Assembly (NCBI GenBank): GCA_013696315.1
Contig: JACCYU010000160.1
Coordinates: 1 to 40,649 of the forward strand
DNA: 40,649 nucleotides
Origin: Gammaproteobacteria bacterium
Lineage (GTDB): Bacteria; Pseudomonadota; Gammaproteobacteria; JACCYU01
Direction of reading: 5' to 3'
This document shows, one piece after another, positions 13,023-29,771 of the stretch. How positions within the stretch are numbered: the stretch's first letter is position 1; every line of letters starts with the position of its first letter. The translations under genes and the position numbers were made by a program. The notes beneath the pieces are model-generated. The model worked only from the letters and a program-made list of their open reading frames with translations, ran no database searches and was not told the DNA's origin.

Positions 13023-13628
13023 TTAAGGCAGATCAGTTTTCTCGTCCAGCAGTCCCCGCCAGTGCAATTGGTACGCTGCCCACGCGAACAGGGGCGCTCC
13101 GACCGTGGCCGCCGCCAGCAGCGGCGCCATCCAGTCGAGCAGCGCGGCCGCGGGAATCACGATCATCGCGTCATCGGGATCGAAGCGCGGTAATGCGCGC
13201 AGTTCACCGGCGCGGCGTCCATGCTGCTGCTCGACTCGCGTAACCCACCACAGTATGCAGATGATCGCCGCACCCGCGACGATACCCATGGGTATGGCCG
13301 ACGCACAAAACAGACCATCGCGCAGGCCGATACCGATGCCGACGAAAGCCAGCGCGTTGCACGAGGTATCGGCAATCAGGTCGTACTGGTGACCCCAAGG
13401 GCTGGACTTGCCGCTGGCGCGCGCCAGTTCGCCATCGGCTCGATCCAGCAGCATGGACAGCAGAAACATCGCCGCCGCCCAGTACTGCCAATCCAGCGCG
13501 AACATCGCCGCCGCCGCGAGACCCGACACCAGGCGAGCCGTGGTGATGTGATTGGGCGTCACCGGTGTATCGATCAGCGGTCGTACGCTGGCGCGCACGC
13601 TGCGGTGTAACCAGGTGTCGTGACTCAT
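13023..13628 (-). CDS. CDP-alcohol phosphatidyltransferase family protein
   Basis: Integral membrane enzyme that exchanges CMP between a cytidylylated group and an alcohol. The full family signature DGxxAR(8)GxxxDxxxD is present: Asp65-Gly66, Ala69-Arg70, Gly79, Asp83 and Asp87. Several hydrophobic helices follow. The 201 residues are the normal size. The gene lies two bases after the AEP transaminase stop, in the same operon as AEP synthesis. This suggests it transfers AEP from CMP-AEP to a lipid alcohol such as diacylglycerol, giving a phosphonolipid. The specificity is inferred from context; it could instead use an ordinary CDP-lipid. Confidence 0.88.
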   Translation of the reverse strand: MSHDTWLHRSVRASVRPLIDTPVTPNHITTARLVSGLAAAAMFALDWQYWAAAMFLLSMLLDRADGELARASGKSSPWGHQYDLIADTSCNALAFVGIGIGLRDGLFCASAIPMGIVAGAAIICILWWVTRVEQQHGRRAGELRALPRFDPDDAMIVIPAAALLDWMAPLLAAATVGAPLFAWAAYQLHWRGLLDEKTDLP

Positions 13629-13630
13629 GA

Positions 13631-14701
13631 CTATACTTGCAGGACTGTGTGGAATGCGGCTAGCAGGCGATCGATATCGGCCGTCGTGATCGCGCCCATC
13701 ACGGCCACGCGAAAAATAGTGCTCGCGAACTTGGCCTGTCCCGCGTAAATGATGAAGCCGCGCGTCTTTAAGCCGTCGTGCAAGGTCTCGTAGGTTATGT
13801 CCACGGGCAGCCGGTACGCGCTCAGCACCACCGAGGCCTGACTCTTCGCCACCAGCGGTTCGATACCCAGAGCCGCGAGCCCATGCCTGAGCTTGTCCGC
13901 GAGCGCGCGATAGTGATCATGCCGCGCGGTCCTGCCGCCCTGCGCTTCGAACTCGACGAGCGCCTGCTTCAGCGCGTAGAAAACATGCACCGGCTGGGTG
14001 AACGGCGTGTCACGCCGGTCCTGTTCGCGGCAGTAGTTCGCCAGATCCAGATAAACCGATCGCGCCGTCCCCGCTGACAACTGCTCCCGCCGTGCGATGA
14101 CAAACGATACGCCGGGCGCGCCGTGCAGACATTTATTCGCGGTAGCAGCGCAGGCGGCGATGCCGGGTTGCTCGAAATCGATTGGTTCCGCGCCGAAGCT
14201 GCTCACCGCGTCGACCAGCAGGTGCACACCGCGCGCGCGGCACAACTCACCCAGCGCCGCCAGCTCGTTGAGGCGACCCGTCGTGGTCTCGTGATGCGCT
14301 ACCCCGATGTGACTAAGTTCCGGCTGCGCGTTCAGTAACTCCTCTATGCCTTTGATCTCAAGTTGACTTTCCCAGGGATGCGCAAGCGCGCGGTGTTCGA
14401 TGCCATGCGCGTGGGCGATGGCGGTCATGCGCTCTCCGTAGACGCCGTTTTCAATGACCAGCAGCCTGCCGTCGCGTGGCACCAGGCTGGTCAGCATCGC
14501 TTCCACCGCGGCGGTGCCGGAACCCGCAAGCAGCACGGCCGCCCACGCATCGTCCGAGAGCCCGTAGACGCGCAACAAGCTGTCGCGGATCGATGCCTGC
14601 AAATCGGCGAATTCCGATTCGCGATGGCAGAGATCGGGACCGGACAGCGCCTGACGCACTTCCGGCGAGAGCGTGACGGGTCCGGGATTCAGCAGAATCA
14701 T
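13631..14701 (-). CDS. phnW: 2-aminoethylphosphonate--pyruvate transaminase
   Basis: PLP enzyme interconverting phosphonoacetaldehyde plus alanine and AEP plus pyruvate. The opening LLNPGPVTLSPEVRQAL and the phosphate-binding GSGTAAVEAML are typical, DAVSSFG holds the cofactor aspartate, and the Schiff-base lysine is Lys190 in TANKCLHGAPG. The 356 residues fit the family. PhnW is often catabolic, but here it is coupled by a four-base overlap to phosphonopyruvate decarboxylase, with PEP mutase upstream and no phosphonatase (PhnX), so the biosynthetic direction is more likely. Confidence 0.93.
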   Translation of the reverse strand: MILLNPGPVTLSPEVRQALSGPDLCHRESEFADLQASIRDSLLRVYGLSDDAWAAVLLAGSGTAAVEAMLTSLVPRDGRLLVIENGVYGERMTAIAHAHGIEHRALAHPWESQLEIKGIEELLNAQPELSHIGVAHHETTTGRLNELAALGELCRARGVHLLVDAVSSFGAEPIDFEQPGIAACAATANKCLHGAPGVSFVIARREQLSAGTARSVYLDLANYCREQDRRDTPFTQPVHVFYALKQALVEFEAQGGRTARHDHYRALADKLRHGLAALGIEPLVAKSQASVVLSAYRLPVDITYETLHDGLKTRGFIIYAGQAKFASTIFRVAVMGAITTADIDRLLAAFHTVLQV

Positions 14702-15873
14702 GCCGGCCCGGTTGAGGGCGTCGACGGCGCGCCGATGTGCGCCATAAAGCGTGCGCGCACCTCGGCCGGCGACAAGGTCGGGCGCGGCAGAACTTCAAGT
14801 GTGCCGGTGCGAATCTTGAGGCAACCGAAGCGCGGTCCAATCCTGCCCGTGCCGCCGAGCAGATGATCCAGAATCGAGAGGTTGTCATCCTCAAGCGCGA
14901 TTGGATAACCACACGCACGGGCAATGCCGGCAAACGAAACATTGTTGGATACCGTCGCCTGCGCGCCGGTCGAATCGTGCGCCTCGTTGTCGAGCAGAAT
15001 GTGCACCAGATTGCCGCCGCCGTAGGCGCCCAGGGTCGCGAAATTGCCCATGCGCATCAATGCCGCACCGTCGCCATCGATGACGACCACCCGCAGGTCC
15101 GGGCGCGTCATCGCTAGTCCCAGCCCCAGCGATGACGCGCACCCCATGGAACCGACCATATATAAGTGATTCGGCCGATCGGAGAGCGCGTACAACTCGC
15201 GGCCCGTGTAACCGGTAGTCGCGATAACAACCGTGTTGGGCTGCGCGGTCATCTCGACCACACGTTGCAGAACCTTCGCGCGCGAGAGGCGCGCCGTGAG
15301 CGTATGTGCGCCGCCGATCCTCGCCTTCTGGTCGCGGTCGTAACGCAGCTTGTGCCGCTGCGTCGAGTCGGAGCGCGCCACCGAATCCTTGCGCATGACC
15401 AGCGCGTAGGGGCGCATCATGTCGCTCATGTGCGACTCGGCACGCCGCAAGGTCTCTTCGATGCGGCCAGCGTCGGTCGGGAAGTATTCCCAGGGAATAC
15501 GCATCGCGTCCAGCACACCACCGGTCATCTCGCCCATGAGCTGATGTTGCGGCTCATCGTTAAGCTCCGGATCGCCGCGCAAGGTCACGATCAGCAGCAT
15601 CGGAATGCGAAACGCATGCGCCAGCGACACCAGCGGGTTGACCGCGTTGCCCAGCCCGGAATTCTGCATCATGGCGATCGGGCGCTGCCCACCCAGAAAC
15701 GCGCCCGCGCAAATCGCGACCGCGTCGCCTTCGTTGGCGGATGACACGTAAACCAGATTGTCGTCGGCGATCGCGTAATCGATGAACGGCGTCAGAAACG
15801 AGCACGGCACTCCGGCATAGCGGTGGTAACCGAAGTCGCGTGCGCGCTCGACGAAGTCCCGCGCCTCGATCAT
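14698..15873 (-). CDS. ppd: Phosphonopyruvate decarboxylase
   Basis: Thiamine-diphosphate enzyme that decarboxylates phosphonopyruvate to phosphonoacetaldehyde, the irreversible step that drives C-P bond formation. The N-terminal PYR domain contains the conserved glutamate in SSANEGDA (about residue 48). The C-terminal domain has the ThDP/magnesium motif from GDG at 267 to DNEAHDSTG at 295. The 391 residues match the family. It overlaps pepM by four bases at its start and phnW by four at its end, giving pepM, ppd and phnW as one coupled AEP pathway. Confidence 0.93.
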
Positions 15874-17528
15874 GACTCGCGCTCAGGCCCCGCATGCCGC
15901 TGCTGACCATGCGCGAAATCACTGGCGCGGCTCAAATCCTCCATGCGATTCACGTCCAGCCAGTGGCCATGAATGTAGAGCACCTTCACACGTCTACCCG
16001 TCTCGATCAGGCGGTTGAGCAAGTCGGTGACACCGAGGCTGTCGAAGTCCGCACGCTCTCGCAGATCGTCCATTTCTTCGAGCAGCCATTCCCGGCCCGG
16101 TCCCACCACTCTCAGCATGCCGATCCAGCGTCCGGAAGGCTGATCGTCGTCATGGTTCGCGTGGTACGCGACACGCAAGAGATCGACGTCCTCGTGGAAC
16201 AGGGCATGGTCGTCGGGGCGCGAGCACCACGCGAGATCACGATAGTCGCGGCTCGCTTCGCGCGGCAGTACGGAGTCGATCACCACCATGATCTCGCCGC
16301 GCATGTCCAGCAGGTCGGACAGAATGTAACGGCGAAACAGCAGATCGCCATAGGTGATGACGGTGTCCTCCCTGATGGCCTCGCGCGCGCAGGCCAGCGA
16401 AGCAAGCTCGCCGCTGATCATGTAGTCAGGATTGCGTAGCACCTGGACGCCGCTCAGATCGATGGCCTCGGCCTTGTAGCCGGCCACGACCGCCGTGTGA
16501 TGTACCTGCTGGCTCTTGAATTCGTCCACCAGACGCTGCAGGAGCGGCTTGTCGCCGATGGACAGCATGACCTTGGGACAATTCTCGGTGAGCGCCTCCA
16601 GCCCCCGGCCGCGCGTGGCCGCGAGCACCACCGAATGCCGGATCGTGCCGGCGGCGAAATAGCGCTTTTCCGCGCCGGCCAGTTCGTCCGCGCCCTGCAG
16701 GCGGAAAATCTCCCTGACCGGCGCGATGTGATCTTCCACGCTGGCGATCGTCTGTGTGGTCTGAATTTCCTCGGCGACTCTCCGCATGGCCGCCACCGCG
16801 CCACGGAGCATGTGATTTGCCCATATCACCGTGCTGATGCCCGCCATGAGAAACACTTCGGTGGGCGTGCTGTAATATTTGGTCGGGACGATCACGAGCG
16901 GCAGGCGATTTTCCCAGCGCTGCGCGAACGCCAGCACCTCGGTGGCCTGCGACTGCGCGCTGTGTATCAGTATCGCGTCCGCGCCCGCGTCCTGATAGGC
17001 GCGCGCGCGGTGCAGCGCCTCATCCAGCCCCCAGCCGGCGACCAGTGCCTCGATCCGCGCCACCACGCAAAAATCCGGATCGAGCTGGCTGTCCTTGCCG
17101 GCCTTGATCTTGCCGCTGAATTCATCGACATCGCACAGGGGCTGGCGCACGCCCTCGATGAAGCTGTTGGTCTTGGGAAATAATTTGTCTTCAATGCATA
17201 CGCCGGCCACGCCGCGCTGCTCGAGCTTTTTCACCAGCCGCCGCGTGTTGTTGAAATTGCCGTAACCCGTATCACCGTCCAGCAGAATGGGAATCGAGGT
17301 CGCGTCACACATGAATTCCAGCATGTCCACAACCTGCGTCCAGCTCGCCTCGTTGTTGTCACGCACGCCGAACTGCGCGGAGATCGCCAGACCGCTGGCC
17401 CAGATGCCCTTGAATCCCGCTTCCTCGACAATGCGGGCGCTGATACCGTTGTGCGCCTCCATGATGAATTCGAGCTGCGGCGAATTTAACAGCGCGCGGA
17501 GCTGAGCGCTTTTCGAGGGAGTCTGCAT
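15870..17528 (-). CDS. pepM: Phosphoenolpyruvate mutase fused to a nucleotidyltransferase
   Basis: Residues 1 to about 290 form a PEP mutase that makes phosphonopyruvate, the C-P bond-forming step of nearly all phosphonate synthesis. Its diagnostic motif is [11 protein letters not shown] (113-123), preceded by WASGLAIS (43-50) and the metal-binding DGDTGYGNF from 84. Residues from about 295 to 552 resemble an NTP-transferase ([15 protein letters not shown], then [17 protein letters not shown]), plausibly a cytidylyltransferase for AEP. Such fusions are known; the fused domain lacks the most canonical glycine-rich loop, so its activity is less sure. There is no good ribosome-binding site before the ATG at 17528. 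Confidence 0.92.
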
Positions 17529-17657
17529 TAAGAAGCTAAGTGACTAATCGGAAAAAGGGTCGAACCGTAATGTGCGCAAAAGCGCGGCCAAAGGCAAGTC
17601 TGCCGGCGAACCGTGGTCTTGTGGCCGAATTGGCAACCAAATAAGCGGTCGCGTTCA

Positions 17658-18389
17658 CTACCGGTGCGCGACCAGCCGCGGCACTATTTCGCTGCGCGCA
17701 CGCTCGATATCTTCCGGAAAATCGATCTCCAGCCACGGCAGGCCGGTGATATCCTCGAAGCCGAACTGGTCCGGTTTGGCCAGCAGCACGTCTCGCAGGG
17801 CCTCCTCAAAAGGCGTATCCAAGGCGCCGGCTTCGACATACCGTGCGGTCACGGCTAGCAGCTTTTGCGTTACGGGATTCGACAGGCGGAAAAAACCAAC
17901 CGATTCACCAAGGTAATCGCAAACGACATCGACCTGCTTTCTGAATTCGACCAGACGCCCGTCGCGCACGCAGAGCTTGACCGGTTCGTCGCCGGGCTCC
18001 ATGTCGCGATCCAGTAGAAAGCAGTTGGGATGCGGAGACGACATCAGACGCTCGATCATGCGGTGGTCGTAAAGCACGTCCGCGTCCATCAGCAACACGT
18101 TGTCACCAGCGAAGCACTCGCGCAGGCGCCACAGGGTCACGATGCTGCCTTGGCGGTAGTCCGGATTTTCGATCAATCGCACGGCGTGGCCGCCGTCAAG
18201 TTCCGCGAGCGCTTGCGCAATGTCGGCAGCCTGATGCCCTACCCCGATAGTCAGGTTATCGATACCGCAGTCCCGCAGGATCTCGAGATGCCGCTGCAAC
18301 AGCGTTTTCCCGTCGAATTCGAGCAGGCATTTAGGTGTGTCTAACTCTAGGCGCCGCCCCACGCCGGCAGCCAGCATCACAGCTTTCAT
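17658..18389 (-). CDS. Nucleotidyltransferase, phosphocholine-cytidylyltransferase-like
   Basis: Single-domain NTP-transferase of 243 residues with the classic nucleotide-binding loop LAAGVGRRL (6-14), the following PKCLLEFDGKTLLQ and the metal-binding VLLMDADVLYD. The segment DEPVKLCVRDGRLVEFRKQ is like LicC-type cytidylyltransferases. Chosen start: ATG at 18389, where the conserved N-terminus begins; the frame is open further upstream only as a shadow of the hpnL-like gene. It lies between the hpnL-like gene and pepM, so CMP activation of AEP (as done by PntC-type enzymes) is a reasonable guess. A phosphocholine or sugar-phosphate substrate cannot be excluded. Confidence 0.82.
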   Translation of the reverse strand: MKAVMLAAGVGRRLELDTPKCLLEFDGKTLLQRHLEILRDCGIDNLTIGVGHQAADIAQALAELDGGHAVRLIENPDYRQGSIVTLWRLRECFAGDNVLLMDADVLYDHRMIERLMSSPHPNCFLLDRDMEPGDEPVKLCVRDGRLVEFRKQVDVVCDYLGESVGFFRLSNPVTQKLLAVTARYVEAGALDTPFEEALRDVLLAKPDQFGFEDITGLPWLEIDFPEDIERARSEIVPRLVAHR

Positions 18390-18432: not shown

Positions 18433-19422
18433 TCAGGATTCCATAATCCGGCGTCGCCAGGAGTGCCGGCCTTCGACGAACTGCCAGGCGAGGATGCCCG
18501 GCAGCCCCAGCGCCAGTTCGCGCACGCGCTTGGCGAGCGAGAGCGCCAGTGCGACTGTCGGCGGTACGCCCAGCAGGCCGCCGAGCAGGATAAATCCACT
18601 TTCCTGCACGCCCAGCGCGCCGGGCACCGCGAACGCCGCCGAACGTATGGCCTGTCCCAGGCTTTCCAGGATCAGCGCCTCGACGAGACCGACCGGATGC
18701 CCCAGAAACCATAGCGCGAGCCACACCTCGCCGGCGCCCAGCACCCACCCCGCCAGACGCCAGCCGCAGGCACTCCAGATCGCGTATCGATCGCGGTAAA
18801 GCGCTACCACTTCGCGATCCAGCGCCACCACACCGCCGGTTATAGACTGCCACCCGCCGCCCTGAGCCAGGCGTTCCAGCCCGCGCGCGAGTACCAGGAA
18901 CACGCCGGCGCGTTGCGCGATGACAAACGAACCCGCGATAACGCCGAAGACGGCGATCCCGATCAACAGTTCCGCCGCCGCGTCACTGGACCCGGCGTGC
19001 CACAGCAGCAGAACCACACCCATCAATGCGAACGCGATCAACGTCACCATACCGGCGGTGAGATCGACGATTACCGAGGCGCCGGCCGGCACGCCCGACA
19101 TGCCGCCACGACGCAGTAATCGCACGCGCAGCAGGTCACCGCCCACTTGCGCGACCGGGAACAGGGAGTTGACCGATTCGCCCAGCCAGCGGATCCACAC
19201 GAGTTCGCTCAATGATTGACCGTGGCCCCGCGGCAACAGCGCGCGCCAGCCGAGCACATCCAGCAGCAGCGGCGCCAGATGAAACACGGTGATCCACGCA
19301 AGCCCCCAGCCGGCCTCGCCCAGCACGCGCAGGACATCACCCAGACCCTGATAAACGGTGACGCCGATAAACAGGCTCAGGCCCGCAAGCCAGGCGCCGT
19401 ACAGTGCGAAGCGCAGTTTCAT
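18433..19422 (-). CDS. hpnL: HpnL-like integral membrane protein
   Basis: Multi-helix membrane protein of the UPF0104/lysylphosphatidylglycerol-synthase transmembrane superfamily, which includes the hopanoid-associated HpnL proteins. The 329 residues contain about seven hydrophobic segments, the family-like LGESVNSLFPVAQVGGDLLR and the C-terminal GALGVQESGFILLGGLLG. No soluble catalytic domain is present, so it is more likely a lipid transporter or flippase than a transferase. The ATG at 19422 overlaps the hpnA stop (ATGA), which fixes the start. It sits at the boundary between the hopanoid genes and the phosphonate genes and could serve either. Confidence 0.82.
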   Translation of the reverse strand: MKLRFALYGAWLAGLSLFIGVTVYQGLGDVLRVLGEAGWGLAWITVFHLAPLLLDVLGWRALLPRGHGQSLSELVWIRWLGESVNSLFPVAQVGGDLLRVRLLRRGGMSGVPAGASVIVDLTAGMVTLIAFALMGVVLLLWHAGSSDAAAELLIGIAVFGVIAGSFVIAQRAGVFLVLARGLERLAQGGGWQSITGGVVALDREVVALYRDRYAIWSACGWRLAGWVLGAGEVWLALWFLGHPVGLVEALILESLGQAIRSAAFAVPGALGVQESGFILLGGLLGVPPTVALALSLAKRVRELALGLPGILAWQFVEGRHSWRRRIMES

Positions 19423-20414
19423 GGCGCCACCGCCGCTCCGCGCAAAAACCACGCGACAGCGTCGCGCAAGGCCTCAAACGCCGGCCGCGGCGCATACGCC
19501 AACTCGCGTTGGGCCTTGTCGCTGCTGTAGTACATGCGTTTTTTCGCCATGCGTACGCTATCCACTGTCAGCGGCAGGTTCTCGGCGCGCAGCAGCCGAC
19601 CGCAGCCTTCCGCAACATACGCGATCGGCAGCAACACGTTGTGCGGCACTCTGATCCGCGGCGGACGTCGGTCGGACAGCTCCGCGATGGTCGTCAGGAT
19701 CTGTTTTAGCGATAGATTCTCGCCGCCCAGCACATAGCGTTCGCCGATGACGCCGCGCTCCAGTGCGCGCAGGTGCCCGTCGGCCACGTCGTCCACATGC
19801 ACGATATTCAGGCCGGTATCTACGTACGCTGGCATGCGGCCTTTGGCCGCGTCCGCCACCATGCGCCCGGTGGGTGTGGGCTTGATGTCGCCAGGGCCGA
19901 CCGGCGTAGAGGGGTTGACGATCACCGCCGGCAGGTGCGCCTCGGCAATCAGGGCATGCACTTCGGCCTCGGCCAGAAACTTGGAACGTTTGTAATCGCC
20001 TATCATGTCGTCAAGCGTGACTGGCGTGTCCTCGTCGGCGGGCGCGCCATCCCGCGTTGTCCCCAGGGTCGCCACACTGCTGGTGTAAACCACGCGCCTG
20101 ACTTTCGCCGCGAGCGCCGCCCGCATGATGTTACGCGTGCCCTCGACATTGGCCGCGTAAATGGTGTCGGGATCTAGCGCCCACAGCCGGTAATCGGCGG
20201 CCACGTGAAACAGCGTATCGCACCCTGTTAACGCCCGCTCCAGCGACACTCGATCGGTGAGATCGCCCACCACGCGCTCGACGCTAAGCCCCTGGAGGTT
20301 ACGCGGATCGCTGTGCGCCCGCGTGAGCACGCGCACCGCCTGACCCGCGTGTAACAGACGCCGCGCGACCGCCGCGCCCACAAATCCCGTCGCGCCGGTT
20401 ACCAGGGTCGTCAT
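19419..20414 (-). CDS. hpnA: Hopanoid-associated sugar epimerase HpnA
   Basis: Extended short-chain dehydrogenase/reductase of about 331 residues. It has the NAD(P)-binding TLVTGATGFVGAAVARRLL at the N-terminus, VVYTSSVATLG and the catalytic-type YKRSKFLAE (YxxxK). The annotation HpnA comes from its regular presence in hopanoid loci; its substrate has not been firmly shown. The start at 20414 begins the Rossmann fold directly; the longer open frame upstream has no conserved sequence. It is coupled to the hpnL-like gene downstream and lies 85 bases after hpnN. Confidence 0.9.
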   Translation of the reverse strand: MTTLVTGATGFVGAAVARRLLHAGQAVRVLTRAHSDPRNLQGLSVERVVGDLTDRVSLERALTGCDTLFHVAADYRLWALDPDTIYAANVEGTRNIMRAALAAKVRRVVYTSSVATLGTTRDGAPADEDTPVTLDDMIGDYKRSKFLAEAEVHALIAEAHLPAVIVNPSTPVGPGDIKPTPTGRMVADAAKGRMPAYVDTGLNIVHVDDVADGHLRALERGVIGERYVLGGENLSLKQILTTIAELSDRRPPRIRVPHNVLLPIAYVAEGCGRLLRAENLPLTVDSVRMAKKRMYYSSDKAQRELAYAPRPAFEALRDAVAWFLRGAAVAP

Positions 20415-20499: not shown

Positions 20500-23175
20500 T
20501 CATGGGGGATCCTGACGCCAGCTCAGCAGCGCCGGCAAGACTATAAGCGTCACGCCCAGAGTCAAGAGAACGCCGACGGTGAGCAGAAACCCGAGACTTG
20601 CAGTGCCCGGATGGGCGGAAAACGCAAGGCTGCCAAAACTGACGATGGTAGTCAACGCACTGTAGAACACCGCCCGCGCCGTGCTGGTGCGCAGCAAGGT
20701 GGCGTACGAACCCGGCTGGCTGCGCAGCCGGTGCATCATGTGAATGCCGTTGTCCACGCCGATACCAAGCAGCAGCGGCAAGGCGATGATGTTGGCGAAA
20801 TTGAACGCGTGACCGCTCAGCGTCACCACCGCGCCGGTCAGCGCGCCGCCCAGCAACAGCGGCGCCAGCACCAGCAGTGCGTCGCGCGGCCCACGCATCA
20901 GCAATAACAATAACACCGCGATCACCAGCAACGACGTGACAAACGCCTGCTGAAACGCGGCGACAACCGCCTCGCCTGCTTTCAGACTGATCACCGGCAG
21001 GCCGGTCGCGTGCGGTGCAAGTGCACTTACCTGCGCCACGAACTGGCGCAACGCCTCGCTGTCGCCCAAGTCGTCTTTGGGGAAGGCTTCCACGCGGTAG
21101 GCGCCACCCGGCGCGCGCCACTGCGCCGCCAGCGGCGGGGGCAGGACTTTAAATCCTACGGGGCCGGCCTTGAGCGCCGTGTCCAGCACATTCAATGTAT
21201 CCGGCAAGGTAGCCAGCAGACTGCGATCCAGCGCCGCCAGGCTGTGCGCCGCCGCGACCTGCGTGCCATCGCTCAGATCATCGAGCAGCCGTCTTATATC
21301 GGCGCGCAAGCGTGCGGTGAGCGCGGGCCAGCGCGGCTCGGCGCCGCTGTGCAGATGCCGCGCGAGCGCCGCCTGAAAATCCTCAAGCGCCGCGCGCTGT
21401 TCCGCATAAGACGGCGGGTCTACTTTAGCGCCAGTCATCAGGGTCAGCCCCATGACCAGCCGCATGTCGTCGATGATCGCGAGCTTGCGTACCTGCCGCG
21501 CGGGCACGTGGTCGGGCAGGCTGACCGCGCGGCTGACCGAGGGCAGCTCGCGCAGGCGCTCCGCCACCGTTGCGGCCGCGGTCGCGTCGGGCTCAAGGAC
21601 GGAAATACTCCATGGCGGCGTGTCGTCACTGTCCACGAGGTCCTGAAAAGTCGCGACCGATTCGCTGTCGGGATCGCGCAGGTTGAGCGGATTGTAATCG
21701 AAGCTCGCAAACGGAAGGCTCAGCGCCGCTACTGCCGCCAGCGCCAGCGCGGTGCGCCTTATCGCGCGCGCATGCCGGCGCGGAAACGCAGCCACCGCAT
21801 CGGTGTAACGCCCGAACGACGCGGGCCCGGATGATTCAGGCCCAGACCATGTAGACAATATGTCGCCACTCGCGCGCGATGGGAACAGGGTCAGCAACGC
21901 GGGCAGCAGGCTCAAGCTGGTAATGAGGCTGATGAACACGCCGGCGCCGGCGATCAGTCCCAGCTCCGAAACGCCTGCGTATGCAGTCGGCACGAACGCG
22001 AAGAAGCCCACCGCCGTGGTCGCCGCCGCGAGCGCCAGCGAGGTGCCGACATGGCTCACGGCCGTGCGCAGAACGGCTGACTGTTCGGCGCCGCGCGTAT
22101 TCAGTTCACGGCACCGCAGACACAGATGGATCGCGTAGTCGGCGCCAAGACCGATGTTCATGACCGCGAAAGCGACCGAGATCAGGTTCAGATGCCCTAT
22201 TGCCACCGCCGCGAAGCCCGCGGTGATTATCAGGCTGGCCAGGAGTGTCGCCACCGACGCGGCGACCATGCGCGGCGAACGCATGCCGGCGAGCAGCACC
22301 AGTATTACCAGCGCTAAAGAAACCACCGCGCCGGTGCCGGCGCCGCGCGCGACGCTTTGCATCTCGTCGTACTCCAGCGCCGCGGCGCCGGTTATGCGCA
22401 AGGTCACGCCCTGGGAACCGTCCAGCGCCATGGCGTGTTTCAGTCCTTCCAGCGCGTTCATGGCGGGGGCGGCCGGCAGCCAGTTGCCGTAATCCAGCCG
22501 CGGCTGAGCGAGAATGAACTGCCGTGCGCCCGAGTCCGATGCGGCATTGCCCAGCATCAGGCCCTGCCAGGAAAGACGATGGAAGCGCCCTGCCCCTTGC
22601 GCCTCGATGGCGGTCTCCAGCGCTTTCAGCAGTGGCGACAAGTCCAGCTTCTCGCCGTCATCCACTGCGTTCAGCGCCTGTGTCAGCATTTGCTGCAGTC
22701 CGCGCAAGGATTGATCCTGCGCGAGCGTGCCCAGAAAGGGCTGCACCTGCGCGAGGTCGTCCGCGAGCTGCCGCAATTCCGGTACATCGAGGTACAGAAA
22801 CGCATGCCGGTCGAAGAACGCGCCGGCACCGGGGCGCGATACCGTCCTGAACAGCGTGTTGGTGCGCTTTAGTTTATTTGCGACCCGGTCGGCGGCGGCG
22901 CGCGCGAGTTCTGGCGTATCACTTTCGATCACCAGCAGCAGGGTGTCCACATACTGCGGAAACGCGCGTTTATAGGTTTCGTAGTCCTGGCGAAACGGCA
23001 ACTCGGCCGATAGCATGTCCGCGCGATCGGTATCCATGCCGAGATGCTGGGACGCGTAATATACGGAGCCGACGGCTATAACGACGAATGACAGCACCAC
23101 TGCCCGCGGCGCGCGGGCCACGCGACTGATCCACCATCCTATGGCGACGCTCAAGGCAGTTTCCAGTCGGGACAT
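20500..23175 (-). CDS. hpnN: Hopanoid-associated RND transporter HpnN
   Basis: Large inner-membrane RND/MMPL-type exporter of 891 residues, required in other bacteria for moving hopanoids to the outer membrane. It shows the two-fold layout of the family: an N-terminal helix (VVLSFVVIAVGSVYYASQ), a long periplasmic domain, a helix bundle with NIGLGADYAIHLCLR, a second periplasmic domain and a second bundle with LLLGIGVDNGIHMMHRLRS. The paired GADYAIH/GVDNGIH motifs are typical. The gene is 154 bases downstream of hpnG, and the gap carries a near-perfect direct repeat. Confidence 0.93.
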   Translation of the reverse strand: MSRLETALSVAIGWWISRVARAPRAVVLSFVVIAVGSVYYASQHLGMDTDRADMLSAELPFRQDYETYKRAFPQYVDTLLLVIESDTPELARAAADRVANKLKRTNTLFRTVSRPGAGAFFDRHAFLYLDVPELRQLADDLAQVQPFLGTLAQDQSLRGLQQMLTQALNAVDDGEKLDLSPLLKALETAIEAQGAGRFHRLSWQGLMLGNAASDSGARQFILAQPRLDYGNWLPAAPAMNALEGLKHAMALDGSQGVTLRITGAAALEYDEMQSVARGAGTGAVVSLALVILVLLAGMRSPRMVAASVATLLASLIITAGFAAVAIGHLNLISVAFAVMNIGLGADYAIHLCLRCRELNTRGAEQSAVLRTAVSHVGTSLALAAATTAVGFFAFVPTAYAGVSELGLIAGAGVFISLITSLSLLPALLTLFPSRASGDILSTWSGPESSGPASFGRYTDAVAAFPRRHARAIRRTALALAAVAALSLPFASFDYNPLNLRDPDSESVATFQDLVDSDDTPPWSISVLEPDATAAATVAERLRELPSVSRAVSLPDHVPARQVRKLAIIDDMRLVMGLTLMTGAKVDPPSYAEQRAALEDFQAALARHLHSGAEPRWPALTARLRADIRRLLDDLSDGTQVAAAHSLAALDRSLLATLPDTLNVLDTALKAGPVGFKVLPPPLAAQWRAPGGAYRVEAFPKDDLGDSEALRQFVAQVSALAPHATGLPVISLKAGEAVVAAFQQAFVTSLLVIAVLLLLLMRGPRDALLVLAPLLLGGALTGAVVTLSGHAFNFANIIALPLLLGIGVDNGIHMMHRLRSQPGSYATLLRTSTARAVFYSALTTIVSFGSLAFSAHPGTASLGFLLTVGVLLTLGVTLIVLPALLSWRQDPP

Positions 23176-23329: not shown

Positions 23330-24046
23330 CTACGTCGCGAAAAAGCGACCGTCAGCCAGCGACGCGACATCGGTCAGGGTGGCGCGCGCGGCGCGAAAGC
23401 CCAGCGCCAGACGCGAGACCGCCGCCCAGTCCAGCGGTCGCGCCAGCACCTGCCGGATGACCGCGCCGATGCATACGTGCCCGCCGTTGTCGATCACGCC
23501 GCCGAGCCACGTCGGCACGCGGGCGACGGAGGTATCGGAAACCGCGCGGATCGCCACAAACGGCACTTGCGCCTCGCTGGCCAGCGCCGCCAGCGCGGCG
23601 CTTTCCATGTCGGCCGCCATTGCGCCTGAACGCAGCATGAGCGCGCGCTTCTGCGCGCGCGTGGCGAGTACCGTCGTGCTTTCGATCAGCGGATCGACGT
23701 GGATGACGAAGCGATTTTTAAGCTGCTCGCACAGCCAGCCGTGCCAGGCCGTATCCACCGAGTAGGATCTGAGGTCCGTGTCGAGAATCACGCCGGGCAC
23801 CAGCAGATTACCCGGCGCCAGCGCGCGGTCTAGTGCTGCCGCCACCCCCCAGCTCATCAACGCGGTGGCGCCTTGAGCCAGCAATTGTTCACCGGCGGCG
23901 CGCGCGCGGCTGGCGCCCATGCCGGCCAGCGCCACTCTTACGTCGCAGGCTTGTGCAACGTTCACTTCCATCGGTGGCTTCAGCGGCCTGCGGATCAAGG
24001 TGCGCGCCTCACCATCCAGCGCGGCGACGATCCCTATGCGCGTCAT
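23330..24046 (-). CDS. hpnG: Hopanoid phosphorylase HpnG (adenosylhopane nucleosidase)
   Basis: Purine-nucleoside-phosphorylase fold enzyme of 238 residues that removes adenine from adenosylhopane to give (phospho)ribosylhopane, a precursor of bacteriohopanetetrol and aminotriol. The opening IGIVAALDGEARTL, the central LMSWGVAAALDRALAPGNLLVPG, the substrate-binding MAADMESAALAALA and the later AIRAVSDTS fit the MTAN/PNP fold. The start at 24046 overlaps the shc stop (ATGA), so I discard the longer open frame to 24274. It acts directly after HpnH, which is encoded on the divergent strand. Confidence 0.92.
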   Translation of the reverse strand: MTRIGIVAALDGEARTLIRRPLKPPMEVNVAQACDVRVALAGMGASRARAAGEQLLAQGATALMSWGVAAALDRALAPGNLLVPGVILDTDLRSYSVDTAWHGWLCEQLKNRFVIHVDPLIESTTVLATRAQKRALMLRSGAMAADMESAALAALASEAQVPFVAIRAVSDTSVARVPTWLGGVIDNGGHVCIGAVIRQVLARPLDWAAVSRLALGFRAARATLTDVASLADGRFFAT

Positions 24047-26001
24047 CCTAGCGCTGCCACCCGCAGTTTCCGGTAACGCGCCAGCGCCCACAGCGGGAAA
24101 TACTTCTGATAACCGTGATATTTCAGATAGAACACGCGTGGGAAGCCCGGCGCCGTAAACGTATCGTCGCGCCACAACCCGTCGGCGCATTGCGCATCCA
24201 GCAGATAGCGGGCCGCCCGATCCAGTGCCGGCGAGTCTGCCTCGCCCGCGGCCATCAGCGCCAGCATCGCCCACGCCGTCTGAAATGAGGTGCTCTCCAC
24301 TGCATCGCGAACCGCCGGCCGGTCACCGAGATAGCTGTCGTTGCCCTCTCCCCAGCCGCCGTCGGACTGCTGTGTCTCTTGCAGCCAGATCACGGCCCGC
24401 CGTACCGCGGGATCGTCCCGCGCTACGCCCACCTGCTCCAGCGCTGCCAGCACCGACCAGGTGCCGTAAATGTAATTGGTGCCCCAGCGCCCGTACCAGC
24501 TCCCGTCGGCTTCCTGTTGCGCGCGCAGGTACGCGATGCAGCGATCCAGGGCCTGCTGACAATGCGGATCGCTGGCGGCGAAACGGTCCAACGCGATCGC
24601 GCAGCGTGCGCTCACGTCCGCGGTCGGCGGGTCCAGCAGCGCGCCGTGATCCGCGAACGGTATCGCGTTCAGGTATTCGCGCGTGTTATCGACATCGAAG
24701 GCCGCGAATCCGCCATTGCGCGACTGCATGATACGGATCCACTCGGCCGCGCGGCGTGCCGACTCGTGGTTGCGGAGATCGTCTGACTGCATCATCGCCC
24801 AGGCCACCGCGCTCGTATCGTCGGTGTCGGGATAATGGCTGTTGCTGAACTGAAACGGCCAGCCACCGCCCGCGGCAAAGGGGCGATCGCGCCGCCAGTC
24901 GCCGGGTTCGTCGCGCAACTGGCGGTGGCGCAGCCACGACAGACCACGCTCCGCCGCTTGCGTCTCGCCGGCTTCCTGCATGGCCAGACAGGCGAGCGCC
25001 GTATCCCACACGGGCGACATGCAGGGCTGACAGTACGCGCTGTCGCCGTCCACCACCAACAGATCATCAAGCGCCCGACGCGCATCCTGGCGGTAAGGGT
25101 GCGTCGCGGAATAGCCGCGCAGGGCCAGCGCTTCGTAAGAGTTGACCATGGCCGGAAAGATTGCGCCCAGGCCCCCGCGACCGTTGCGGCGCTCGATAAT
25201 CCAGTCTTCGGCGCGCTGTAGCGCACGGTTGCGTATCCAACGGGGCACGAACGGCTCCAGCCAGCGCCCGGTCCGATCCAGCAACAGAAACAGCCGCTTG
25301 AGCACTGACGGCGCCGGGAAATAATCGGTGACGTTTTCCGGCGGCACGTCGAACAGCTCGCTCAAACCCACAGCTTGGGGATTCCGGGCCTGCGCGCGCA
25401 GGCTGCACAGGATCAGCAACGGCACCATGACGGTGCGCGACCAGTACGATACCTTGTCGATATGAAACGGAAACCAGCGCGGCAGCAGGATGATTTCCAC
25501 CGGCATGAACGGCACCGCGCGCCACGGCACCTGGCCGAACAGCGCCAGCGCGATGCGCGTGAAAACGTTCGCGCGGGCAGCACCCCCACGCGCCAGAATA
25601 GCTCGCCGCGCCGCCGCCATATGTGGCGCTTCGCAGTCGTCGCCGGCAAGCTTCAGCGCGTAATACGCCTTGACCGAACAGCTCAGATCGAAATCCCCAC
25701 CCTCGTAAAGCGGCCAGCCGTGATGCAACGCCTGATCAAGTCCCGCCTGGTCTTCCATAGACTGGTGCGCACGGATGAATACCGCGAGCTTCGCCTGCAG
25801 CGCGGTATCGACTTCGCCCATGAAGTGCATCATGAGAATATATTCGGCGGGAATCGTGCAGTCGGCTTCCAGCTCGTACGACCAGTGCCCCGCGCGCTGT
25901 TGCGACACCACCAGCGCGCTGACCGCGCGCTCAACCGCCGAGTTCAGCAGGTCGCTTTCACTCAGCCGCCACCTTGCGCGCGCCACCCGATCCAGCATCA
26001 T
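24043..26001 (-). CDS. shc: Squalene--hopene cyclase
   Basis: Membrane-associated monotopic enzyme that cyclises squalene to hopene/hopanol, the committed step of hopanoid synthesis. About 652 residues, the usual size. The catalytic DXDD motif is DTDD at about 392-395 (YPDTDDTSAVAWAM). Several QW repeats are visible: QSRNGGFAAFD, QQEADGSWYGRWG, QQSDGGWGEG, QCADGLWRDD. The most likely start is the ATG at 26001, which overlaps the squalene synthase stop as TGATG; a TTG at 26004 and a second ATG at 25998 are in frame. It is coupled on both sides, to sqs and hpnG. Confidence 0.97.
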   Translation of the reverse strand: MMLDRVARARWRLSESDLLNSAVERAVSALVVSQQRAGHWSYELEADCTIPAEYILMMHFMGEVDTALQAKLAVFIRAHQSMEDQAGLDQALHHGWPLYEGGDFDLSCSVKAYYALKLAGDDCEAPHMAAARRAILARGGAARANVFTRIALALFGQVPWRAVPFMPVEIILLPRWFPFHIDKVSYWSRTVMVPLLILCSLRAQARNPQAVGLSELFDVPPENVTDYFPAPSVLKRLFLLLDRTGRWLEPFVPRWIRNRALQRAEDWIIERRNGRGGLGAIFPAMVNSYEALALRGYSATHPYRQDARRALDDLLVVDGDSAYCQPCMSPVWDTALACLAMQEAGETQAAERGLSWLRHRQLRDEPGDWRRDRPFAAGGGWPFQFSNSHYPDTDDTSAVAWAMMQSDDLRNHESARRAAEWIRIMQSRNGGFAAFDVDNTREYLNAIPFADHGALLDPPTADVSARCAIALDRFAASDPHCQQALDRCIAYLRAQQEADGSWYGRWGTNYIYGTWSVLAALEQVGVARDDPAVRRAVIWLQETQQSDGGWGEGNDSYLGDRPAVRDAVESTSFQTAWAMLALMAAGEADSPALDRAARYLLDAQCADGLWRDDTFTAPGFPRVFYLKYHGYQKYFPLWALARYRKLRVAALG

Positions 26002-27104
26002 CAACCCCCCGCACTCCGCAGATCGCGCCCCGCGACATTGACCATACCCCGGATCAGCCGGTCGCGCTTAAGACTCATGCGCGCGATGAGGATGGTCGCC
26101 TTGACACTGCGCCGCGAGATCTTGACTTCACGCCCGGTACTGAAATCCGGGTGGCGCGCGAGCTTGCGCAAGGTCAGTACGGCAAAACCGATCGCCCACA
26201 GACAGAACGAGCGAATGCCTCGTTCGTGCCGGGGAATCAGCAAGGTATAGGTTACCGCGTCGTCCAGATGCGACTGCGCGATGGCGATCAGCCGCTCAAG
26301 GCCGGCGCCGAACTCGGCCCGATAAGCGCCGGGAGCGAGCTTGTGCAGGTCGAATCCAGCCTCCTCGAACACACTGCGCGGCAGCCAGCAGGCGCCGCGC
26401 TGCTGATCGTCCCAGATGTCTTTGAGGATATTCGTCATTTGCAATCCCTGCCCGAACGATACCGCCAGCGGCATCAGGGTGTGCCGATGGCGCGCGATGT
26501 CCGGCGAATATTCGCAGAACAGCTCGGTCAGGCTTTCGCCCACAATGCCGGCGACGTGGTAGCAGTAGCGCGCGAGCTGGTCGAGGTCCTCGAGTCCGCG
26601 CGGATTCTTGACGTGCTGGAATTCCACCATCCCGCTCGCCATCACACGCACACACCGGGCCAGGGATCTTAGCTGTGACGGGCTGAAGCTGAACGTAATC
26701 GCTATCACCGAAGGCGTGCGCCCTATCAACTCCTGCTCCGCGGGAAGCGTGTGTGCGGAAAGCCGGGCGGCGAGCGTTGCGGAAAACGCCCGCGCGCCGT
26801 TGCCGGTTTCCACGACGTCTACGAATTGCGCGCACAAAGCCGCCTGCTCATCCACGCCAAGCGCGGGTTCATCTTCGATGGTGTCGACGATGCGACACAG
26901 CAGATAAAGGTTGGATATGACGTCCCGGAGCTGGATAGGCAACTGCGGGATGGTCAGTGCGAACGTGCGCGACACGCCCAGCAGCAAATGGCTCTGCAGG
27001 GTTCGTTCGGCATCCGACAGACACCGGACTTCGGCTGCGCGCGGATTCCGCCTGGCGCTAGTGGCCCGCGGACCGGACTCGGCGGCATGCGCGGATTCAG
27101 TCAT
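26001..27104 (-). CDS. sqs: Squalene synthase (farnesyl-diphosphate farnesyltransferase)
   Basis: Condenses two farnesyl diphosphates to squalene. The 367 residues contain both aspartate-rich motifs: DTIEDEP (from 74) and NILKDIWDD (Asp at 229-233), with YCYHVAGIVGESLTELF between them. It resembles the one-step, eukaryote-like synthase seen in Methylococcus rather than the HpnC/HpnD pair, and no HpnE-like oxidase is found here. The C-terminal region (IRSFCLWAIGFAVLTLRKL) is hydrophobic in part. The first 28 residues are polar and probably disordered. It heads the minus-strand hopanoid array and diverges from hpnH. The distinction from HpnC/HpnD is by eye and should be tested. Confidence 0.9.
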   Translation of the reverse strand: MTESAHAAESGPRATSARRNPRAAEVRCLSDAERTLQSHLLLGVSRTFALTIPQLPIQLRDVISNLYLLCRIVDTIEDEPALGVDEQAALCAQFVDVVETGNGARAFSATLAARLSAHTLPAEQELIGRTPSVIAITFSFSPSQLRSLARCVRVMASGMVEFQHVKNPRGLEDLDQLARYCYHVAGIVGESLTELFCEYSPDIARHRHTLMPLAVSFGQGLQMTNILKDIWDDQQRGACWLPRSVFEEAGFDLHKLAPGAYRAEFGAGLERLIAIAQSHLDDAVTYTLLIPRHERGIRSFCLWAIGFAVLTLRKLARHPDFSTGREVKISRRSVKATILIARMSLKRDRLIRGMVNVAGRDLRSAGG

Positions 27105-27425: not shown

Positions 27426-28544
27426 ATGGGTGTGCCCTTAAGACAACAGTATCGAGTCGCCCGCTACCTGCTCGCGCAGCGTTTGCAACGAAAAGAGCGC
27501 TACCCGCTGGTGCTCATGCTGGAACCCCTGTTCCGCTGCAATCTGGCCTGTGCGGGCTGTGGCAAGATCGACTATCCCGAAGACATTCTCAACCGGCGTT
27601 TGAGTGTAGCCGAATCCTTGAGCGCAGTGGATGAATGCGGCGCGCCCATGGTCTCGATCGCGGGTGGCGAGCCGCTGGTGCACAAGGAAATGCCCGAAAT
27701 CGTGGCGGGAATCGTCGCGCGCAAGAAATTCGTTTATCTGTGCACCAACGCGCTCCTGCTGGAAAAGCGACTCGACGATTACCGGCCGTCGCCATATCTC
27801 ACGATGTCGATTCACCTGGACGGCAACCGCGAACGGCACGATGCCTCCGTGTGCCGCGACGGCGTGTTCGACAAGGCCACGCAGGCCATCCGCCTCGCGC
27901 TGGAAAAGGGTTTCCGGGTGACGGTGAACTGCACTTTGTTCCAGGGCGAATCCGCACACGAAGTGGCGGAATTTTTCGATTACGCAACCGCGCTTGGCGT
28001 GGAAGGCATCACCGTGTCGCCCGGTTTCAGCTACGAGCACGCACCGCAGCAGCAGGTGTTCCTGCAGCGCACCGGCGCCAAGCAACTGTTCCGCGACATT
28101 TTCAAGCTCGGCAAAAAACGCCGCTGGGCATTCAACCATTCCAGCCTGTTTCTCGACTTTCTGGCCGGCAATCAGACGTATCACTGCACGCCGTGGGGCA
28201 ACCCCACGCGCAACGTGTTTGGCTGGCAACGACCGTGCTATCTGCTGGTGGACGAGGGCTACGCGCCGACTTTCAATGCGCTCATGGAAGAGACGGACTG
28301 GGATCGTTACGGCACCGGGCGCAATCCCAAATGCGCGAATTGCATGGCGCACTGCGGGTACGAGCCGACCGCGGTGAGCGATACCTTCACGCACCCGTTG
28401 CGCGCACTGCAAACATTCATGTTCGGACCCCGCACCGAAGGCGCGATGGCGCCGGAATTGCCGGTGGGCTACGCCGAGAGCAACGTCGCGGACGGCATAC
28501 GCATTCCGATCGAGGAGATCGGCAGCCGGCACAGCGCCCGCTAG
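27426..28544 (+). CDS. hpnH: Radical SAM adenosylhopane synthase HpnH
   Basis: Adds the 5'-deoxyadenosyl group of S-adenosylmethionine to diploptene, making adenosylhopane, the start of all extended hopanoids. The 4Fe-4S motif CxxxCxxC is in FRCNLACAGCGKIDYPE (cysteines near residues 39-46). The C-terminal NPKCANCMAHCGYEPTAV supplies further conserved cysteines. The 372 residues and the very conserved opening YPLVLMLEPLFRCN make the call secure. The ATG at 27426 is the family start, though it has no clear Shine-Dalgarno. HpnG, which acts next, lies in the divergent operon. Confidence 0.97.
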   Translation: MGVPLRQQYRVARYLLAQRLQRKERYPLVLMLEPLFRCNLACAGCGKIDYPEDILNRRLSVAESLSAVDECGAPMVSIAGGEPLVHKEMPEIVAGIVARKKFVYLCTNALLLEKRLDDYRPSPYLTMSIHLDGNRERHDASVCRDGVFDKATQAIRLALEKGFRVTVNCTLFQGESAHEVAEFFDYATALGVEGITVSPGFSYEHAPQQQVFLQRTGAKQLFRDIFKLGKKRRWAFNHSSLFLDFLAGNQTYHCTPWGNPTRNVFGWQRPCYLLVDEGYAPTFNALMEETDWDRYGTGRNPKCANCMAHCGYEPTAVSDTFTHPLRALQTFMFGPRTEGAMAPELPVGYAESNVADGIRIPIEEIGSRHSAR

Positions 28545-28628: not shown

Positions 28629-29771
28629 GTGGATAGCCTGATCAATAGCGCCGGATTTTGCCTGACGGTCGGTGCGCTGCTGTTGTGGCTCGCGGTAATG
28701 CTCGCGCCCTGGCGTCCGTGGAGCACGCGCGAGCAGCTGACGGCGACTCCCTCGCCACCGGACTCCGACCTGCACGATGTCACGGTCATCATCCACGCCC
28801 GCAACGAGGCCTCACATATCGCTGAGACCCTGCGCGCCCTGGCGCGGCAGGGACACGGATTGCAGGTGATAGTCATCGACGATCAATCCACGGACGCCAC
28901 GGAGTTTGAGGCACGCGCCGTGACTGCGCTGACACCGATGTGTCTGCGCGGCGAGCCATTGCCCACGGGCTGGACCGGCAAGCTGTGGGCACTTGAACAG
29001 GGCCGGCGACTTGCCCGCACTCCGCTGACCCTGGCCTTGGACGCCGACATCGTACTGGCGCCGGATATTATCGCTACGGCGCGCGACAAGCTCAGCCGCG
29101 AACGTCTCGATATGCTCTCGCTGGTGGCAGCGCCGCGCATGCAAAGTGCGCTGGAAAAACTGGCTATGCCGGCGTTCGTTTACTTTTTCAAACTGCTTTA
29201 TCCGTTCGGTCTCAGCAATTCCCGACATTCGAGGATCGCCGCCGCGGCCGGCGGATTCGTACTGGTACGGACTTCGATGCTCGATGAGATTGACGCTTTT
29301 GCCTCCCTTAAAGGCGAGCTTATCGATGACTGCGCACTGGCGATGAAGGTCAAGCGCGCGGGCGGCAACATCTGGCTGGGACTCAGCCATGCGGTGATAA
29401 GTCAGCGGCGCAATCAGCAACTCGCCGACCTGTGGCGCATGGTGTCGCGCACCGCGTTTACCCAGTTGCGGTATTCGGGTGTCGCGCTCTGTGTCTGCAC
29501 TGTAACGATGTTCATCGCCTTCGTGAGCCCGTTGCTGGCGATGAGCAGCGCGCACGCAGCGACTCGTGTTGTCTCAATCGCGGCGCTGGCCATGATGATG
29601 CTCAGTTATCTTCCCACTCTGTTGTACTATCGGCGCTCACCCGCCTGGGTGCTGAGCCTGCCGCTCGCCGCCCTGCTCTATCTTGCCATGACCTGGGGCT
29701 CCGCCATCGGCTACTGGCGCGGTCGGCGCGCCAGCTGGAAGGGGCGCGTATACCGCGCAGAAACCTTATGA
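28629..29771 (+). CDS. hpnB: Hopanoid-associated glycosyltransferase HpnB
   Basis: Family 2 glycosyltransferase of 380 residues with an N-terminal membrane helix (FCLTVGALLLWLAVML), the catalytic domain (VTVIIHARNEASHIAE, VIVIDDQSTDAT) and a DXD-type metal site in ALDADIVLAPD. Three or more hydrophobic helices follow at the C-terminus. HpnB proteins are tied to hopanoid loci by context; the acceptor has not been firmly shown. I accept the GTG at 28629 as start because it precedes the first helix. It follows hpnH by 84 bases and overlaps hpnM by four bases. Confidence 0.9.
   Translation: MDSLINSAGFCLTVGALLLWLAVMLAPWRPWSTREQLTATPSPPDSDLHDVTVIIHARNEASHIAETLRALARQGHGLQVIVIDDQSTDATEFEARAVTALTPMCLRGEPLPTGWTGKLWALEQGRRLARTPLTLALDADIVLAPDIIATARDKLSRERLDMLSLVAAPRMQSALEKLAMPAFVYFFKLLYPFGLSNSRHSRIAAAAGGFVLVRTSMLDEIDAFASLKGELIDDCALAMKVKRAGGNIWLGLSHAVISQRRNQQLADLWRMVSRTAFTQLRYSGVALCVCTVTMFIAFVSPLLAMSSAHAATRVVSIAALAMMMLSYLPTLLYYRRSPAWVLSLPLAALLYLAMTWGSAIGYWRGRRASWKGRVYRAETL

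Follow-up and report, generated by a model that had tools for sequence, protein, structure and literature searches.

The question raised by this locus is what a bacterium does with the 2-aminoethylphosphonate (AEP) that it appears to make and activate. The locus lies on a gammaproteobacterial contig (JACCYU010000160.1, assembly GCA_013696315.1), whose whole stretch of 40,649 nucleotides was analysed and is referred to below as the window. Five tightly packed minus-strand genes at 13023-18389, the AEP cassette, code for a CDP-alcohol phosphotransferase (CDP-AP), PhnW, Ppd, a PepM-nucleotidyltransferase fusion (PepM-NT) and a stand-alone nucleotidyltransferase (NT2). In the original prediction, made from the sequence of this stretch, they were taken for a CMP-AEP route to phosphonolipids. 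All five genes are present, with PepM, Ppd and PhnW exceeding their curated cut-offs, and AEP synthesis followed by CMP activation is well supported. What had been overlooked is that the cassette makes up the 3' portion of a hopanoid operon, read on one strand with short gaps in the order shc-hpnG-hpnN-hpnA-hpnL-NT2-pepM/NT-ppd-phnW-CDP-AP. Hopanoids serve bacteria as their main sterol analogues and have left the hopane record in rocks. Such a setting inside a hopanoid operon is shared by many relatives, so a hopanoid may take the place of diacylglycerol as lipid acceptor.

We give an even chance to the reading that the cassette adds a phosphonyl-tailoring branch to hopanoid biosynthesis, with a phosphonohopanoid (AEP on a bacteriohopanepolyol) as its product. 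In the route that we infer, PepM, Ppd and PhnW would convert phosphoenolpyruvate (PEP) to AEP, and NT2, perhaps together with the PepM-fused domain, would join AEP and CTP to give CMP-AEP. With CMP-AEP as donor, the CDP-AP would then transfer AEP to a bacteriohopanepolyol, the product of Shc, HpnH, HpnG and HpnA, at one of its hydroxyls. The resulting phosphonohopanoid may be flipped by HpnL and carried to the outer membrane by HpnN. The computed [M+H]+ values are 654.486 for AEP-bacteriohopanetetrol and 670.481 for its hydroxy form.

The AEP cassette and the hopanoid operon

The enzymes of AEP synthesis, the nucleotidyltransferase and CDP-AP families and the hopanoid genes were all assigned by homology. 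On the minus strand, the cassette starts with NT2 (17658..18389; PF12804, 56 bits), a PntC/LicC-like protein predicted to be an AEP cytidylyltransferase. It is followed by PepM/AepX, a PEP mutase fused to a C-terminal PF12804 nucleotidyltransferase domain at about residues 296-540 (15870..17528; TIGR02320, 396 bits, cut-off 320), the Ppd/AepY phosphonopyruvate decarboxylase (14698..15873; TIGR03297, 435 bits, cut-off 313), the PhnW/AepZ AEP aminotransferase (13631..14701; TIGR03301, 416 bits, cut-off 361) and the CDP-AP (13023..13628; PF01066, 56 bits), predicted to take AEP from CMP-AEP and attach it to a hydroxyl of a lipid. Together with its TIGR02320 score, the diagnostic EDKxxxxxNS motif at residue 113 places PepM among the PEP mutases. 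The pepM-ppd and ppd-phnW pairs overlap by 4 bases, phnW and the CDP-AP gene are 2 bases apart and NT2 and pepM 129 bases apart; these overlaps and short gaps are the spacing of one transcript. Throughout the 3.05-Mb draft genome (96% complete), profile searches found no PhnJ and no phosphonatase match over its cut-off, so that the argument against phosphonate degradation, first made for the window, holds genome-wide.

Upstream of NT2 and on the same strand come hpnL (18433..19452; TIGR03476, 330 bits, cut-off 196), separated from NT2 by 43 bases and coding for a putative flippase-like membrane protein, and hpnA (19419..20414; TIGR03466, 494 bits), a hopanoid-associated short-chain dehydrogenase/reductase gene whose frame is open to 20486, with an ATG at 20414. 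Next are hpnN (20500..23175; TIGR03480, 982 bits), a hopanoid transporter of the resistance-nodulation-division type, hpnG (23330..24274; TIGR03468, 155 bits, below the cut-off of 187; start uncertain), a hopanoid-associated phosphorylase gene, and shc (24043..26004; TIGR01507, 778 bits), coding for squalene-hopene cyclase. A squalene synthase-like/HpnD-like protein is encoded at 26001..27104, also on the minus strand (TIGR01559, 103 bits, and TIGR03465, 77 bits, both below cut-off). The divergent, plus-strand arm holds hpnH (27426..28544; TIGR03470, 565 bits), for the adenosyl-hopene transferase, an hpnB-like glycosyltransferase gene (28629..29771; TIGR03469, 343 bits, cut-off 379) and a frame (29432..30421) with hpnM in its C-terminal part (TIGR03481, 214 bits, residues 135-328). 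The locus thus combines shc with hpnH, hpnA, hpnN and hpnL above their cut-offs, which identifies it as a hopanoid cluster. A scan for sigma-70 promoters and terminators gave no terminator-like match in the hpnL-NT2 gap and no sign of a transcript break there; promoter-like matches were no more numerous than in shuffled sequences, and terminator-like ones numbered 18 vs. 10.7 +/- 3.3 in shuffles.

Co-occurrence and recurrence of the pairing

Co-occurrence was analysed in two sets of genomes, one of 94 relatives (for the most part a single genome from each family) and one of 98 alphaproteobacterial relatives. Among the 94 relatives, PepM-NT is present in seven and HpnH in 11, HpnH being found in all seven PepM-NT genomes vs. 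4/87 of the others (Fisher p 3e-8, or 3e-6 when each family contributes a single genome). As for the alphaproteobacteria, where NT2 was found in 20 genomes, PepM in 18 and HpnH in 29, the NT2 genomes have HpnH in 18/20 cases (p 2e-10) and PepM in 15/20 (p 6e-11). All six gammaproteobacterial NT2 genomes have PepM.

An NT2 profile scan of 84,980 genomes provided the 80 loci closest to the window's NT2, brought to 93 with further additions. Genes of the hpn type lie near NT2 in 49 of the 93 loci, and at least two different ones in 33. The PepM-NT fusion is found with hpn genes in three whole-genome relatives (G013, G030 and G092). Other gammaproteobacterial families also have genes for hopanoids near NT2, pepM or both (L032, L034, L035, L066, L083, L085, L099, L108, L114), as do many alphaproteobacteria, some cyanobacteria (L040, L041, L045, L048, L052, L067) and Nitrospinia. 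As a whole, hopanoid and AEP genes are paired in Alpha-, Beta- and Gammaproteobacteria and in some cyanobacteria. In the alphaproteobacteria the gene order is conserved as hpnM | hpnN-NT2-CDP-AP-hpnA-(hpnL)-ispH-hpnH | shc, and pepM is often located elsewhere.

Two cultured isolates carry the pairing on plasmids. On plasmid p1318-3 of Roseomonas marmotae (record 13590-42312), hpnCDE-shc-hpnG and hpnH-ispH stand alongside genes for a CDP-AP, PhnW, an HpnL-like protein, AepY, AepX, NT2 and an HpnN-like MMPL protein, and a megaplasmid of Mycetohabitans rhizoxinica holds the cassette together with hpn genes. With a whole hopanoid cluster and the AEP cassette on the 431-kb R. marmotae plasmid, the trait can be plasmid-borne.

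HpnL stays with the cassette also at loci with no other hpn genes nearby, as seen over the window, L038, L092, L116, L131, L132 and L147-L149, which hints at a role with the phosphono-lipid. In the HpnL tree, the AEP-linked and the plain hpn-linked copies are not separated.

Thirteen loci have a gene for PhyH, a 2-oxoglutarate dioxygenase: L032 (16403-17173, minus strand), L040, L041, L062, L066, L075, L086, L089, L093, L095, L131, L132 and L134; L148 has a 2OG-Fe(II) oxygenase. The recurrence of PhyH suggests 1-hydroxy-AEP head groups. No PhyH oxygenase was detected in the window's genome.

A natural fusion and two partners of NT2

In an alphaproteobacterial draft genome (G208), CDP-AP is fused in frame to HpnN in a single open frame of 1104 residues (L134:14495-17809, plus strand), with the CDP-AP at residues 15-214 (52% identical to that of the window) and HpnN at residues 233-1090. 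The fusion gene adjoins hpnL, and NT2, pepM, ppd, phnW, shc, hpnG, hpnA and hpnH are found at the same locus. A natural fusion of this kind speaks strongly for functional coupling between the transferase and the hopanoid transporter, but it is one case, from a draft genome. Among the matches listed in the plasmid search, no second CDP-AP-HpnN fusion was found and no record covered 80% of the fusion.

The 93 NT2 loci also differ by the partner of NT2: LicD is found in nine, CDP-AP in 56 and hpn genes in 49, and LicD never occurs together with CDP-AP or hpn genes (0/93). The nine LicD-linked relatives fall in one clade of the NT2 tree, which also holds L075 and L089. This split is in keeping with a single activated phosphonate that goes to glycans in some systems and to a lipid in others. 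It also bears on whether AEP could decorate a surface glycan (lipopolysaccharide or capsule), the hopanoid linkage being incidental. AEP glycans and PntC-LicD clusters are known, and a separate NT2 clade is tied to LicD, yet LicD is missing both from the window's genome and from the CDP-AP/hpn-type NT2 loci; LicD was therefore rejected as the transferase here, and a glycan product is considered very improbable.

The LicD-type proteins accompany NT2 in L065, L071, L072, L074, L077, L079, L084, L096 and L109, and in L150, on a Rhizobium rhizogenes plasmid. Some of these genomes have no detected PepM, and the pairing would be another tailoring system, probably of glycans.

Extending the proposal beyond the window, phosphonohopanoids with AEP or hydroxy-AEP would form a widespread and hitherto undescribed lipid class, made by an NT2 and CDP-AP module in alpha-, beta-, gammaproteobacterial and some cyanobacterial hpn operons, with HpnL serving and HpnN exporting the product, in one lineage by way of the CDP-AP-HpnN fusion. 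This wider claim is tentative, its probability being put slightly below one half.

The two nucleotidyltransferases

The original prediction had called for a comparison with PntC-type sequences. The best PDB profile match of NT2 is indeed PntC of Treponema denticola (Tde-PntC, 6pd1; 76 bits), aligned over the full length and followed by IPCT (2xme, 52 bits) and LicC (51 bits). R13, K20, K151 and E195 of NT2 are the equivalents of Arg15, Lys25, Lys153 and Glu196 of Tde-PntC, whose alanine mutants of Arg15, Lys25 and Lys153 retain less than 10% activity and whose Glu196 lies near the AEP amine (PMC6697681). Across 95 relatives, G9, G11, R13, K20, D104 and D223 do not vary, and D102, K151 and E195 hardly do. 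The loop fits GxG(T/S)R...PK with both catalytic residues, the T/S position being R in the window, and the position of Glu104 in Tde-PntC is occupied by an aspartate (D102), as in LicC (PMC6697681). To judge by the best PDB match and the conserved equivalents of Arg15, Lys25, Lys153 and Glu196, NT2 is likely an AEP cytidylyltransferase.

The PepM-fused domain was rightly described as having an atypical glycine loop: AATRGRG replaces AAGxGxR (of LAAGxGxR..PK), and the canonical GxG(T/S)R loop is absent. It is no oddity of this protein, however, since AA[S/T]RG is found in 52/55 relatives, making the loop a family trait. The PK lysine is invariant among these relatives, and both metal-binding aspartates are conserved in nearly all. 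At the position of Arg15 of Tde-PntC they have G, E or A, and an arginine three residues earlier (R306) is conserved in 52/55. In the AlphaFold2 model of the fusion (pLDDT 84.8), the closest nucleotidyltransferases to the fused domain are Tde-PntC (6pd2, Z 28.6) and LicC (Z 26.3). The idea that this loop is the sign of a dead domain was set aside for want of proof, since it is conserved together with K319, D395 and D525; the domain may be active with a shifted arginine. Both nucleotidyltransferases have PntC/LicC-type relatives, and either may be the one that makes CMP-AEP.

NT2 also resembles IPCT (NF041135, 72 bits, besides 2xme), and the CDP-AP resembles DIPPS and PIP synthases. NT2 and CDP-AP could accordingly place another head group on hopanoids (inositol-phosphate-like, phosphoethanolamine or other), like a split IPCT-DIPPS, with the PepM-fused domain activating AEP for a different use. 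Five of the 20 alphaproteobacterial NT2 genomes, all five HpnH-positive, lack a detected PepM (L128 in G160, L129, L130, L131 and L097), and four of them have a CDP-AP-hpnA operon, which speaks for such a head group. Candidate reasons for the missing PepM are draft gaps, imported AEP or, precisely, another head group. NT2 is nevertheless closer to PntC than to IPCT and lies directly upstream of pepM, PepM accompanies it in 15/20 alphaproteobacterial and in all gammaproteobacterial genomes counted above, and in the NT2 tree the PepM-negative tips, from genomes that are mostly drafts, are scattered among PepM-positive sisters. This alternative is regarded as improbable.

The CDP-alcohol phosphotransferase and the lipid acceptor

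The metal ligands of CDP-AP, described as intact in the original prediction (DGxxAR...GxxxDxxxD), form a complete motif, D62-x2-D65-G66-x2-A69-R70-x8-G79-x3-D83-x3-D87, and motif and fold together place the protein in PF01066. It does not group with the enzymes of ordinary phospholipid synthesis, the grouping that had been named as refuting a phosphonolipid route: against the NCBIfam equivalogs it scores 24 bits for pssA (cut-off 107) and 20 for ClsA (cut-off 240), with no match for pgsA. Elsewhere the genome codes for PgsA and PssA, both over cut-off, as well as for a PgsA/Cls-like protein. The part of the phosphonolipid prediction that sets CDP-AP apart from an ordinary phospholipid synthase is thus supported; its acceptor is the part that may need revision.

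The AlphaFold2 model of CDP-AP (pLDDT 90.9) has as nearest folds AF2299 (Z 21.6), IPCT-DIPPS (18.5) and PIP synthases (about 17-18), and is further from CPT1/CEPT1 (Z 12-13) and from PS/PGP synthases (Z 10-11). Matches to a designed PPR protein in the PDB were dismissed as chance. The fold leaves the acceptor to be read from gene context.

Diacylglycerol has to be weighed as that acceptor. CDP-AP would then make a phosphonate analogue of phosphatidylethanolamine, and the hpn linkage would reflect outer-membrane co-regulation or joint transfer. Similar clusters have been predicted to make a phosphonolipid (PMC5987646), and CMP-AEP/diacylglycerol chemistry is of the cholinephosphotransferase type, CPT1/CEPT1 being among the structural matches. 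Cassettes apart from hpn genes also exist, and they weigh against the hopanoid proposal. In Burkholderia cenocepacia (L149), CDP-AP-HpnL-NT2-PepM-Ppd-PhnW has no hpn biosynthesis genes nearby, in a single-contig genome (G195) the cassette is not adjacent to the hpn genes looked for, and at 20 of 26 Nostoc-type loci the surrounding 10 kb or so hold no hpn gene.

Several further points count against phosphonohopanoids as well. Gene context alone points to a hopanoid as the acceptor, and no phosphonohopanoid was found in the literature searched. The stretches examined at six gammaproteobacterial loci (L032, L066, L083, L085, L108 and L114) hold no CDP-AP, and in an alphaproteobacterial subgroup CDP-AP has lost the last Asp of the motif. 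The genomes are not phylogenetically independent, the Fisher tests ignore relatedness within the sets, and the NT2 loci are the 80 closest to that of the window. The PepM-less alphaproteobacterial genomes described above belong here too.

Set against diacylglycerol are the fusion of CDP-AP to the hopanoid transporter HpnN, the many alphaproteobacteria with NT2 and CDP-AP inside hpn operons and pepM elsewhere, the presence of HpnH in every PepM-NT genome of the gammaproteobacterial set, and nearest folds that are AF2299 and inositol-type enzymes, not enzymes with a diacylglycerol acceptor, although this last point does not fix the acceptor. An ordinary phosphonolipid is on balance judged rather unlikely.

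CDP-APs inside alphaproteobacterial hpn operons (L069, L086, L087, L097, L098, L107, L113, L128-L130, L133, L135, L136 and L138) share a DHxDGELAR..GHxxDH pattern; at the final motif position, where a catalytic aspartate is usual, they have G, A or another residue. Some of these loci have two CDP-AP genes.

Neighbouring genes

Just downstream of CDP-AP, a Rieske oxygenase is encoded at 11826-12908 (minus strand). It is distantly SdmA-like (4beta-methylsterol monooxygenase; 168 bits vs. a cut-off of 600), is retained in the sister genome G001 and could oxidise the hopanoid or AEP; the HpnA of the operon is likewise SdmB-like (255 bits). Further on, at 8975-11741 (plus strand), there are genes for a dihydropteroate-synthase-like protein and an MfnB-like (5-formylfuran-3-yl)methyl phosphate synthase, besides an unassigned open reading frame (10414-11004). 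This block looks like tetrahydromethanopterin/methanofuran-type C1 cofactor genes beside the hopanoid operon.

Comparison with known systems

If true, the proposal would add a hopanoid head-group class with a C-P bond, give bacterial AEP a destination and suggest a role for HpnL; what most PepM-fusion clusters modify would become a question for mass spectrometry in culturable strains. As far as the searches show, the new elements are the recurrence of the pairing in several classes, the division of NT2 loci between LicD and CDP-AP, the fusion of CDP-AP to HpnN and a defined product with predicted mass. No paper with both 'hopanoid biosynthesis' and 'phosphonate biosynthesis' was found in the literature searched. 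The genes hpnA, hpnB and hpnL are listed as having unknown roles, and a 2025 survey of alphaproteobacterial hopanoids, in which words beginning with 'phosphon' do not occur, reports no additional candidates around the hpn cluster (PMC12583986).

Fusions of PepM to a nucleotidyltransferase have already been published, as have clusters that hold another nucleotidyltransferase as a separate gene (PMC6697681). The Pnt clusters of T. denticola, Atopobium rimae and Olsenella uli likewise have a PepM-NTase fusion, with PntC one or two genes away, Ppd and an AEP transaminase, and NT2 shares the catalytic residues of PntC. They are paired with LicD or glycosyltransferases for glycans, whereas the cassette of the window is paired with a CDP-AP inside a hopanoid operon. 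The logic of a nucleotidyltransferase acting with a CDP-alcohol transferase is that of IPCT-DIPPS of Archaeoglobus, which together with AF2299 provides the folds closest to CDP-AP; IPCT-DIPPS is one fused protein for inositol phosphate, while the window has two separate genes tied to AEP synthesis.

Nearest in gene content is the cluster of a Nostoc cyanolichen and Burkholderia, drawn in Fig. 7 of PMC5987646 with CDP-APT, OG-Fe(II), NTPT, pepM, ppd, AEPT and hpnL, i.e. nearly the gene set of the window. The account given there interprets it as phosphonolipid synthesis and does not propose a hopanoid product. Unlike that cluster, the window has no PhyH oxygenase, and its cassette lies within an shc-hpn operon. 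Nearest in concept is a 2021 paper, in which hopene cyclase genes linked to pepM in Roseomonas led to the suspicion of an 'undiscovered terpene-phosphonate' (PMC8776678). The idea of a hybrid product is the same as here; its passages on this cluster concern Acetobacteraceae only and name no transferase, acceptor or activation step, for which the present analysis proposes CDP-AP, a bacteriohopanepolyol and the making of CMP-AEP by NT2.

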